Assembly: GCA_017307355.1 (NCBI GenBank)
Contig: JAFKFG010000007.1
Span: forward strand, 62,001 to 126,000
Direction: 5' to 3'
DNA length: 64,000 nucleotides
Source of the DNA: Alphaproteobacteria bacterium
Lineage (GTDB): Bacteria > Pseudomonadota > Alphaproteobacteria > Micropepsales > Micropepsaceae
The notes under the pieces are model-generated. The model did no database searches, was not told the origin of the DNA, and saw nothing but the letters and a program-made list of their open reading frames with translations. This document shows, piece by piece, positions 47,550 through 50,403 of this stretch. Each line of letters starts with the position of its first letter. Position 1 is the first letter of the stretch. Made by a program: the position numbers and the translations under genes.

Positions 47550-48767
47550 TCAAACCTTGGCCGCGACGAGATCGGCGGGCGCGTGGTTGGTGCCCATGCC
47601 CAGGAACTTCTTCACGTTGCGGGCCGCCTGGCGGATGCGGTGCTCATTCTCCACCAGCGCCACGCGCACATACCCTTCGCCATATTCGCCGAAGCCGATG
47701 CCGGGCGACACCGCCACCTTGGCGTGCTGCAAAAGCTGCTTGGCGAATTCCATCGAGCCGGCTTCGCGGAATTTCTCCGGCACAGGGGCCCAGGCGAACA
47801 TGGAGGCTTCGGGTGACGGAATATCCCAGCCGGCTTGCGCCATGCTTTTCACCAGCACGTCACGGCGCGATTTGTAGATGGCGCGGATCTCGTCCGCCAC
47901 TTCCTGCGGGCCGTTCAGCGCCGCCGCCGCCGCCACCTGGATGGGCGTATAAGCGCCGTAATCGAGATAGGATTTGATACGGGCCAGCGCGCCGATCAGA
48001 TGCGGATTGCCCGCCGCAAAGCCCATGCGCCAGCCGGGCATGGCATAGGTCTTGGACAGCGACTGGAATTCGATCGCGATGTCCTTGGCGCCATCCACTT
48101 CCAGGATCGAAGGCGGCGGCACGTCGCCGAAATAGATGTCCGCATAAGCCAGATCGGACAGGACCCAGATCTCATGCTTCTTCGCGAATTTCACGATCTC
48201 CTTGTAGAAATCGAGCCCCACCACCTGCGCGGTGGGATTGGAGGGATAATTCACCACCAGCGCCACGGGTGACGGCACCGAATGGCGGGCGGCGCGGCTG
48301 AGCGCGGAGAGATATTCTTCCGGCGAAGTCGCGGGCACATGGCGGATGGCGGCGCCGGCCAGAATGAAACCGAAAGCATGGATGGGGTAAGCGGGGTTCG
48401 GAACCAGCACCACATCGCCCGTCGCGGTGATCGCCTGGGCGAGGTTGGCGAAGCCTTCCTTGGACCCCAGCGCCGCGATGACTTCGCGGTCCGGATCGAG
48501 TGTCACCCCGAAGCGGCGCTTGTAATAGGCGACATGCGCCTTCCTCAGCCCCTTGATTCCGCGCGAGGCGGAATAGCGGTTGGAGCGGGGATCGCGCGCC
48601 GTCTCGCAGAGCTTCTCCACGATATGATCGGGCGTGGGCATGTCGGGATTGCCCATGCCGAAATCGATGATGTCCTCGCCCCGCGCGCGCGCCGCAGCCT
48701 TGAGGCGATTGACTTCCTCGAAAATGTAGGGCGGCAGCCGCTTGATGCGGTAGAAATCGGTGTTCAT
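47550..48767 (-). CDS. AlaC/DapL-like PLP-dependent aminotransferase
   Basis: 405 residues, class I/II aminotransferase. FEEVNRLKAAARARGEDIIDFGMGNPDMPTPDHIVEKL, SRGIKGLRKAHVAYYKRRFGV, NPAYPIHAFGF, VVNYPSNPTAQVV and PLP lysine in SLSKTYAMPGWRMGFAAGN. The best-known relative with these blocks is E. coli AlaC (glutamate-pyruvate aminotransferase); many alphaproteobacterial members next to hom are annotated LL-diaminopimelate aminotransferase, which cannot be decided here. AGGAAA precedes the ATG at 48767. First gene of the run with hom, glpX, recJ. Confidence 0.92.
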   Translation of the reverse strand: MNTDFYRIKRLPPYIFEEVNRLKAAARARGEDIIDFGMGNPDMPTPDHIVEKLCETARDPRSNRYSASRGIKGLRKAHVAYYKRRFGVTLDPDREVIAALGSKEGFANLAQAITATGDVVLVPNPAYPIHAFGFILAGAAIRHVPATSPEEYLSALSRAARHSVPSPVALVVNYPSNPTAQVVGLDFYKEIVKFAKKHEIWVLSDLAYADIYFGDVPPPSILEVDGAKDIAIEFQSLSKTYAMPGWRMGFAAGNPHLIGALARIKSYLDYGAYTPIQVAAAAALNGPQEVADEIRAIYKSRRDVLVKSMAQAGWDIPSPEASMFAWAPVPEKFREAGSMEFAKQLLQHAKVAVSPGIGFGEYGEGYVRVALVENEHRIRQAARNVKKFLGMGTNHAPADLVAAKV

Positions 48768-48882
48768 GGAAGTTTCCTGAAAGCACCCCAAAAATCGGGC
48801 ATTTGGGTGCTGTGTGCAATCACTTTCCGGCTGTTTTGAGGCGCGTTGAAAGCAGGGGGTTTATGCGCGTGTTGTAGGGCCG

Positions 48883-49087
48883 GTCCGGCCGCTCGCCTTA
48901 GCTCGCGGCGTTCGCCGCTCGAAATGGTCCAGGGCGCCCTTCCTGTTCGTGGCTGTCCGGCCGCTCGCTTAGGCTCGCGGCGTTCGCCACTCAAAATGGT
49001 CCAAGGCACCCTTCCTGTTCGTGGCTGTCCGGCCGCTCGCTTAGGCTCGCGGCGTTCGCCACTCAAAATGGTCCACTGGACCATTTT
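48883..49087. repeat. three-copy 72-bp tandem repeat array
   Basis: Units begin at 48883, 48955 and 49027 with an exact 72-base period. Units 1 and 2 differ at only a few positions; unit 3 matches unit 2 for 49 bases and then ends in a palindrome. Because 72 is a multiple of three, one minus-strand frame reads a 24-residue repeat (PWTILSGERREPKRAAGQP...), but low coding support makes a protein doubtful. The array lies in the 340-base gap between the aminotransferase start and the OmpA-like lipoprotein stop. Confidence 0.9.
49065..49087. repeat. perfect palindrome at the end of the repeat array
   Basis: AAAATGGTCCA at 49065-49075 and TGGACCATTTT at 49077-49087 are perfect reverse complements around one base. 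The left arm is part of each repeat unit. It lies 20 bases beyond the stop of the minus-strand OmpA-like gene and could fold as its terminator or mark a repeat end. Confidence 0.85.
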
Positions 49088-49107
49088 GTCCGCTTCGCGG
49101 TCGTGGC

Positions 49108-50403
49108 TCACCCCTGCACAAAGATCTCGGCGCGGCGATTGCCGGCTTCGCCCTTGGGCATGGATTCGTAATAGACCGGCTGGCTGTCGCCCACCGCGTC
49201 GATCAGAACCTTGGAGGCGGGAACGCCCTGGCGGATCAGATCCTGCGCCACCGCATTGGCGCGCGCCTGCGACTTGGCGAAGATCGTTTCCAGATGCTTT
49301 TCCATCGACATGTCGCCGGTCCGGCTGGACGAATGGCCGACCACGCGGATGGAGCCCTGCCCGCCATTGGCCTTGAACGCGGCTGCCGCGGCACGCACCT
49401 GTGCATGCGCCGCCTTGGTGAGGGCAACGCCATCGCCGGCGAAATAGACCACGGCGGTGGGCGTCCCGCCGCTGAGGTTGGCCACCACCGAGCCGCTATC
49501 CGAACCGCGGCTGGCGCCTTTCGGCGGAACCGCGGGAACCGCCGGCGCGGCACTGCCCGCAAGCGAAGCGGTCTGGCGATAGCGCGCCACGATGGGCGCC
49601 GACACGAACTGGTTGACCGAAGGATCGAGCGGCGGTGCCGCCGACGGCTTAAAGCCCAACGCGGCATCGGATGCAGCCGGAGGCGCCATGACCGCGCCGC
49701 CGCGCGCCGGCGCATTGGCCGGAACAGCCGGCTGGCTGCCCGCCGATCCGGCGGAAGGCCCGACCGGTGTCGCGGTGGTGCCGGGAAGCGCCGCCGTGCG
49801 CACGGGCGCATTGGCGGGCACGGCCGGTTCGTTCGATGGTGCGGTGGCGCGCAAGGCCGGAACCGGCGCCGCGGGCGCCGGCGCGGCGGCCCGTGCAGCA
49901 GCGGCGGGTGCAGCAGCGGCGGGTGTCGCGGCGATCTGGGGCGGTGCGGCTTCGGGCGCGGCAGCGGACGGCGCTTCGGAAGCGGTGGGCGGTGTGTCGG
50001 TTGCGCTCAGCGCGCGTTGCGCGATGGCCGGCGCGGTTTCGCTGGCGGGCGGCGGCGGGGGCGCGGCCGCTTCGGTGCCGCCGCGAAGCGCGTCGGCGCT
50101 GTAACGAGCCTGGGCGCCGTCGCTGGCCAAGGATTGCGCGGTCTGCTGCTGATCGCCCGGGGTCGCCGTGGGCGCCGGACGGGCCGGCAAGCTGGCAAGA
50201 TCGGGCGTGGTGCCGGTGGCATCGTCGGACGCGGTCGGCGCCGCCTGGTCCGGAAACTGGCTGGCAGGAGCGGTGTCGCTGCTGCTGCTGTCGCTGAGAA
50301 GTCCCGTGGGATCCAAATCCGAAATGGTGGAACAGGCAGAGGCCGCGACGGTCAGGCCCAGGATCAGCGTCAACTGGCGCAGAGGAACGGTGGACTTGGT
50401 CAT
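49108..50403 (-). CDS. OmpA-family peptidoglycan-binding lipoprotein with long Ala/Pro linker
   Basis: 431 residues. Signal sequence and lipobox AASAC (cysteine near 24), then about 250 residues of low-complexity Ala/Pro/Thr linker, then a C-terminal OmpA domain (about 310-430: VVYFAGDGVALTKAAHAQVRAAAAAFKANGGQGSIRVVGHSSSRTG, AKSQARANAVAQDLIRQGVPASKVLIDAVGDSQPVY, GNRRAEIFV). It probably tethers the outer membrane to peptidoglycan. A TTGGAA-17-TATAGG promoter lies 75 bases upstream. Divergent from phaC. Confidence 0.9.
   Translation of the reverse strand: MTKSTVPLRQLTLILGLTVAASACSTISDLDPTGLLSDSSSSDTAPASQFPDQAAPTASDDATGTTPDLASLPARPAPTATPGDQQQTAQSLASDGAQARYSADALRGGTEAAAPPPPPASETAPAIAQRALSATDTPPTASEAPSAAAPEAAPPQIAATPAAAAPAAAARAAAPAPAAPVPALRATAPSNEPAVPANAPVRTAALPGTTATPVGPSAGSAGSQPAVPANAPARGGAVMAPPAASDAALGFKPSAAPPLDPSVNQFVSAPIVARYRQTASLAGSAAPAVPAVPPKGASRGSDSGSVVANLSGGTPTAVVYFAGDGVALTKAAHAQVRAAAAAFKANGGQGSIRVVGHSSSRTGDMSMEKHLETIFAKSQARANAVAQDLIRQGVPASKVLIDAVGDSQPVYYESMPKGEAGNRRAEIFVQG

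Follow-up and report, generated by a model that had tools for sequence, protein, structure and literature searches.

The 64,000-nucleotide stretch of alphaproteobacterial DNA analysed here (the window) carries, at the stop codon of an OmpA-like gene, a repeat that we interpret, with a probability of roughly 0.6, as a non-autonomous, REP-like mobile palindromic element, which bears a GTGAG tag and persists as a 3′-UTR structure. Copies of this element are dispersed, share a fold, coincide with stop codons and have turned over among related genomes.

The array in the window and the fold of the element

A first-pass annotation of the window had described a three-copy, 72-bp repeat array ending in a perfect palindrome. 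Both are real. TRF reported a tandem array at 48883–49075 (period 72, 2.7 copies, 95% matches), with units starting at 48883, 48955 and 49027 at a spacing of exactly 72. The unit at 48955 has 90% identity to that at 48883; the unit at 49027 is the same as that at 48955 over its first 49 nt, diverging beyond, and has 69% identity to the unit at 48883 over 72 nt. The perfect palindrome lies at 49064–49088, with the arms CAAAATGGTCCA and TGGACCATTTTG. When AAAATGGTCCA was searched for in the same genome, three matches were obtained, all within the array, and the reversed control gave none. The flanks were also as described: on the minus strand, the OmpA-family gene ends at 49108 and an aminotransferase gene begins at about 48767. 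The array end, placed by the annotation at 49087, had to be corrected, since the full copy reaches into the OmpA stop codon, to 49111. The full element is thus 80 nt long and occupies 49111 to 49032 on the minus strand; two degenerate copies come after it. The 72-bp period is the spacing of the truncated copies, which the units of the annotation nearly match. The features of the locus are listed below; bit scores and E-values refer to the covariance model R1, which was built from 15 copies of this genome, full unit 1 being one of them.

49032–49111, minus: full unit 1, 80 nt, with GTGAG tag, P1, P2, P3 and P4 (103.8 bits, E 8.4e-21)
49107–49111, minus: GTGAG tag; its TGA at 49108–49110 is the stop of the OmpA-like gene (gene call, stop offset 4)
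49054–49062, minus: P1 3′ strand, GTGGC-GA-AC, pairing with 49103–49107 and 49110–49111, with GA opposite GA between
49090–49100, minus: P2 hairpin of the predicted fold, CCGC-GAA-GCGG
49064–49088, minus: P3 hairpin of the predicted fold, identical with the perfect palindrome
49032–49053, minus: P4 tail hairpin of the predicted fold, GCCGC-GA-GC-CTAA-GC-GA-GCGGC, which served as search pattern
48960–49029, minus: degenerate unit 2 (45.7 bits, E 4.9e-7; own fold weak, z −1.98)
48888–48957, minus: degenerate unit 3, with lesions like those of unit 2 (35.4 bits, E 1.3e-4; z −1.01)
49108–50403, minus: upstream OmpA-family gene, its stop inside the element (PF00691, 1.9e-10)
47550–48791, minus: downstream class I/II aminotransferase gene, likely ATG at 48767 (PF00155, 2.9e-61)

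Unit 2 retains the upper part of P1 and P4, while its GTGA tag, P2 and the 5′ arm of P3 have been replaced. A 115-codon ORF on the minus strand (48764–49111) begins at the element's own GTG and is probably spurious. Further tandem or close pairs of the element, spaced by 78 to 110 nt, were noticed at L263, L240, L235 and L065, in the genomes G441, G417 and G000 (the last being that of the window).

The element folds into a closing stem, P1, around the hairpins P2 and P3, and the tail hairpin P4 follows directly. P1 consists of GT, then GA opposite GA, then GCCAC paired with GTGGC. When unit 1 was folded alone, its energy was −41.7 kcal/mol against a mean of −22.8 for shuffled sequences (z −6.62; none of 200 shuffles was as good), and this single-sequence fold was the consensus fold. 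Folded as DNA, the same strand retained the structure except for the outermost two pairs; the opposite strand, folded as RNA, gave a similar but weaker structure (−38.8).

Covariation in the stems was extensive. In the consensus of the 15 copies from the window's own genome, 95.3% of the cells were paired and 18 of the 29 pairs had changed on both sides, none of 500 shuffles being as high. Two further alignments gave comparable values: A2, of loci fetched by the P4 sequence alone (94.8% of cells paired, shuffles 76.7%, 0 of 500; 27 of 29 pairs), and A3, of loci mainly from two close relatives (92.9%, shuffles 72.5%, 0 of 500; 25 of 29 pairs). Both were aligned to the model and so lean towards the fold; slid controls were only 25–44% paired. 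The tag and P4 are conserved in sequence, P4 being fixed by the search pattern in one alignment.

Pairs were tallied over the counted stem cells of the best 74 rows of A2 and of A3 (73 and 67 distinct). Non-standard pairs were mostly G.A (191, against 25 A.C and 24 others), and GA also stands opposite GA at the base of P1 and in P4, outside the counted pairs. G.T cells outnumbered A.C cells by 66 to 25, an excess that is expected if the gene-sense strand folds. It is this strand that the covarying fold fits best. The P1 base is Watson–Crick in G417, G444 and G015, with the stop codon still included. A separate variant at L269 and L286 has a Watson–Crick P1 of 10 bp (GTCGACATCC/GGATGTCGAC) and lacks the TGA tag; it is identical in two species, the upstream flanks of which differ by 8%.

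Dispersal and coincidence with stop codons

The first-pass annotation had proposed dispersed elements of this lineage and, failing that, a local accident. A DNA search of the window's own genome gave 47 matches at E<=10, and the covariance model gave at least 78 at E<=10 and at least 51 at E<0.01 (150 candidates scored; two of the 51 overlap each other, C24). The array is therefore one of many copies, and the local accident was ruled out. Among 69 genomes of the same genus, own genome included, at least 34 had a match at E<=1e-5 and at least 29 had five or more; the other 35 had no match at this threshold among the 67 candidates scored per genome. In a sample of the class, at least 7 of 385 genomes were positive at E<=1e-6 (12 candidates scored per genome), three of them from the window's genus (its own genome included) and four from elsewhere. 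All these model counts are lower bounds, because a limited number of candidates was scored in each genome.

A search of named genomes with the P4 pattern alone gave 80 loci (at least 116 stretches), mostly labelled Alphaproteobacteria. The whole-element model scored at least 45 bits in 74 of them, including L139, which is truncated at the end of its contig. So are L106 and L123 among the remaining six; L080, L084, L110 and L152 are weak. Carriage by plasmids or phages was set aside, since neither the plasmid collection nor the phage collection gave a match to the element. It may be added that elements also occur in MAG records under the labels Rhizobium, Rhizobiaceae or Caenibius (L108, L126, L133, L134, L156). 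The label of L134 may be wrong, as an identical element with a 95.7% identical flank occurs in L205 (G440, of the window's genus).

The position of the element relative to genes was examined for 49 of the 51 matches of its own genome, the best 82 of 100 A2 rows and 80 A3 rows. After duplicates and pieces under 60 nt had been left out, 196 distinct elements remained. In place of a standard gene finder, we called genes with a custom script based on codon usage, which had been checked against one stretch of the window. The upstream gene lay on the same strand in 152 cases and on the opposite strand in 28; 11 had no call and 5 elements lay inside a called gene. For 71 of the 152, the TGA within GTGAG is the exact stop of the upstream gene, which ends at element position 4; every other offset accounted for six cases or fewer. 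This bears out, and makes more precise, the earlier suggestion that copies sit downstream of genes, although 28 of 196 lie behind an opposite-strand gene and 5 within genes. Of the other same-strand copies, 55 lie past the stop by more than 5 nt, and 26 are close to it at other offsets.

Stop offset 4 was found in 14 of 48 elements from the own genome, 34 of 79 from A2 and 23 of 69 from A3 (all distinct elements), the last set being favoured towards stops by five guaA-selected members (L198, L204, L205, L211, L218). For comparison, element-free GTGAG sites were counted outside coding sequence in the window and in L078–L157: stops accounted for 14, same-strand noncoding sequence for 55 and opposite-strand noncoding sequence for 57, and 9 had no upstream gene. 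Stops were thus over-used by the element, with 71 of 154 against 14 of 126 for free GTGAG (odds ratio 6.8, p 8e-11, comparing 71 vs 83 with 14 vs 112, the 26 same-strand near-stop elements being left out). Copies away from stops also favoured the sense orientation (55:28, against 55:57 for free GTGAG; p 0.02). The 125 of 196 elements away from offset 4 count against our interpretation of the element.

The element starts with GTGAG in 151 of 196 cases and with GTGAA in 11. The copies off stops, those behind an opposite-strand gene and those for which no upstream gene was called amount to 94; a CTTCGACAAGC-type hairpin immediately precedes 15 of them, a unit ending in CGTGCT immediately precedes 13, and 66 have neither. 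A second hairpin family, with the loop CTTCGACAAGCTCAG or its reverse, was seen upstream of the element at L044, L052, L053, L083 and L090, and also at L104, L249, L260 and L263. Its 3′ arm ends in AGGGTGAG and so supplies the GTGAG tag of the element in these composite copies. The host genes look diverse; judging from their sequences, we take them to include GuaA-, GcrA-, HtpX-, PntB- and GltB-like genes.

Gain, loss and replacement at orthologous sites

The relatives compared are different species, at roughly 80–92% DNA identity; the ancestral sites are therefore reconstructed, which weakens the case for mobility. Clear counterparts, 79–92% identical, were found for 12 of 47 loci of the window's genome (11 places) among 72 element loci of G417 and G441, two incomplete genomes from which part of the matches was fetched. 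Nine stop-codon elements had a readable relative without the element, and in seven of these comparisons the stop was at an unchanged codon position. Where the window's genome has GTGAG, the seven relatives carry CTAAC, TTGAT, GTAAG, CTGAT, CTGAT, GTAGC or CTGAC. As none of the seven has GTGAG, a pre-existing GTGAG target is unsupported. A pure GTGAG DNA target, entered in random orientation, was rejected: it leaves both the stop enrichment and these GTGAG-less empty sites unexplained. At L039, the G441/G417 sequence (GTAAG) may hold a relic of the element, and G014, with CTAGC, is the safer comparison. At L045 and L055, the proteins end one and five residues earlier owing to the TGA of the element.

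Copy number at the window site varies among relatives, as the annotation had wished to see examined: there are three units in G000, one in G014, one in G440 and none in G441. A presumably atpH-like gene lacks the element in G441, G417, G014 and G440, and further orthologous sites without it were seen. At the guaA stop, the element was present at 8 of 30 sites read; these were 30 of 59 matches, and presence was decided by the model at 21 of them and by visual inspection at the other 9. Its distribution needs five changes on the guaA tree, at least three of them forced by well-supported branches (bootstrap not settled). G014, G000, G417 and G441 all have the element at this stop, with the fold kept and the stems very different, which would also fit a retained function.

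Orthologous copies are identical or nearly so at L267/L283 and L245/L258. At L195/L196 and L236/L287, stems can differ greatly between flanks that are 93–94% identical. Some copies contain other hairpin modules, either within P3 or P4 or in the interval from P1 to P4. Modules with the core TAGCGNCAGCGTA, or a close variant of it, lie in the P3/P4 part at L055, L066, L070, L081, L101, L253 and L297, and a palindromic insert, CAAGCTTTTCTAGGCT...AAGAAAAGCTAAGCCAACG, separates P1 from P4 at L066, L320, L299 and L303. Taken together, the site comparisons indicate that the same places have repeatedly gained the element, lost it or had it replaced.

Proposed mobility, rival explanations and related repeats

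If the element is mobile, a folded single strand may be the intermediate by which its copies spread, with the GTGA tag paired to an internal guide, GAAC or TCAC, at the 3′ base of P1; tag and guide together would mark the point of cleavage and joining. Copies would survive where their own TGA ends a gene harmlessly, and would then be transcribed as a compact 3′-UTR fold that starts at the stop codon, with possible effects on termination, on mRNA decay or on expression downstream. In the window, an element at the ompA-like stop would have gained two truncated tandem copies. The ends of IS200/IS605 elements have a guide tetranucleotide that pairs with the tag at the foot of a hairpin. A partly non-canonical pairing of tag and guide would follow the same logic, the guide role in the GTGAG element being putative. 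IS200/IS605 elements use a Y1 transposase; for the GTGAG element the base pairing in P1 is seen, and no such transposase was found in its own genome.

A stronger version, which we regard as doubtful, is that the element homes to stop codons: its own TGA would replace the existing stop without shifting its codon position, the P1 strand that contains the stop would couple termination to the 3′-UTR fold, and the pairing of GTGA with GAAC or TCAC would serve both as insertion logic and as RNA structure.

Y1_Tnp was not found in the window's own genome, and Y1 transposase genes were present in 3 and absent in 26 of 29 element-rich genomes of the genus, which we count against a mobile element; they occurred in 15 of 40 other genomes of the genus. 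Mobilisation of a REP by a RAYT, with Y1 absent here and present in just those 3 of 29, was thus without support. In G008, the distance between an element (L328, 1328–1408) and a Y1 transposase gene is about 1.1 kb; the Y1 genes of G014 and G016 have no element nearby (within about 2 kb). Moreover, the sites on which the mobile reading rests have no defined target-site duplication or exact 3′ joint.

The element might instead be a cis-acting 3′-UTR RNA, either a termination-coupled regulator or an mRNA stabiliser, kept by selection, its spread being incidental. The sense orientation (152:28, and 55:28 off stops against 55:57 for free GTGAG), the wobble excess on the sense strand and the compensatory changes that keep the fold at the same guaA stop would all suit such an RNA. 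We nevertheless consider it unlikely, as the host genes look diverse (OmpA-like by Pfam, others judged from their sequences), clear counterparts are confined to 12 of 47 own-genome loci among the 72 loci of the two close relatives, and 35 of 69 genomes of the genus have no copy at E<=1e-5 among the candidates scored. Neutral correction of imperfect palindromes by template switching could make the stems of an inert DNA covary without selection, and wholesale replacement of this kind would give the very different stems between 93–94% identical flanks. It would, however, erase GA opposite GA, which persists at the P1 base and in P4, and the tag and P4 are conserved in sequence; this origin appears improbable.

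An intrinsic transcription terminator would be in keeping with GC-rich hairpins directly behind genes. A T run of at least 4 within 15 nt after the element was present in only 9 of 196 cases, and at L039 a separate hairpin with a T-run lies farther downstream, leaving a terminator very improbable. The first-pass annotation had also noted a 24-residue periodic peptide. Both strands of the window array do have open frames, yet the lengths of the 196 elements spread over all three frame classes (73/53/70), and we give a coding repeat practically no weight. The preferred reading remains the mobile palindromic element.

Over the element, whether in the window or at 18 further element loci, no Rfam 15 family exceeded its gathering threshold, and no description of the GTGAG family was found in a literature search and Rfam. 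The nearest relatives in kind are REPs. According to PMC3733652, REPs lie mostly downstream of genes, and GTAG termini often give a stop codon. GTAG REPs with a RAYT (PMC3733652 and PMC2817692) and the GTGAG element are alike in being dispersed palindromes with a fixed 5′ tag, found mostly after genes, and in forming dimers and mosaics; the tag often supplies the stop, as TAG in the former (PMC3733652) and as TGA in the latter. They differ in that GTAG is outside the 12 commonest starts of the element, which cover 188 of 196. The GTGAG element has about 80 nt and four helices, whereas GTAG REPs are palindromes of 20–40 bp, and its tag is paired in the fold, where theirs is described as unpaired. 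No gene of the RAYT (Y1) type, the transposase of GTAG REPs, was found in the own genome.

CGTC REPs, which have no associated transposase genes according to PMC3733652, resemble the GTGAG element in being mostly alphaproteobacterial, in lying downstream of genes and in the lack of a dedicated transposase among those found. As presented there, they form one stem-loop, with another tag, other stem rules and another tail; when alignments were compared by eye, the GTGAG element showed no CGTC-type tag, 8–9 bp stem or short tail. Earlier work, as reported in PMC12306157, found that REPs less than 16 nt from the stop codon lower translation. The E. coli REPs near stops in that account share with the GTGAG element a structured repeat immediately at the stop codon, but in the latter the stop codon is inside the structure. 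The GTGAG family therefore shares the logic of REPs and not their tag, size or fold, and is placed outside both the GTAG and the CGTC super-families.

The GTGAG family covaries strongly and, in diverse genes, links a probably mobile palindrome to the stop codon with single-base precision. It thus offers a practical way of testing why REP-like repeats accumulate at the ends of genes and, where a RAYT is absent, by which enzyme they are moved.
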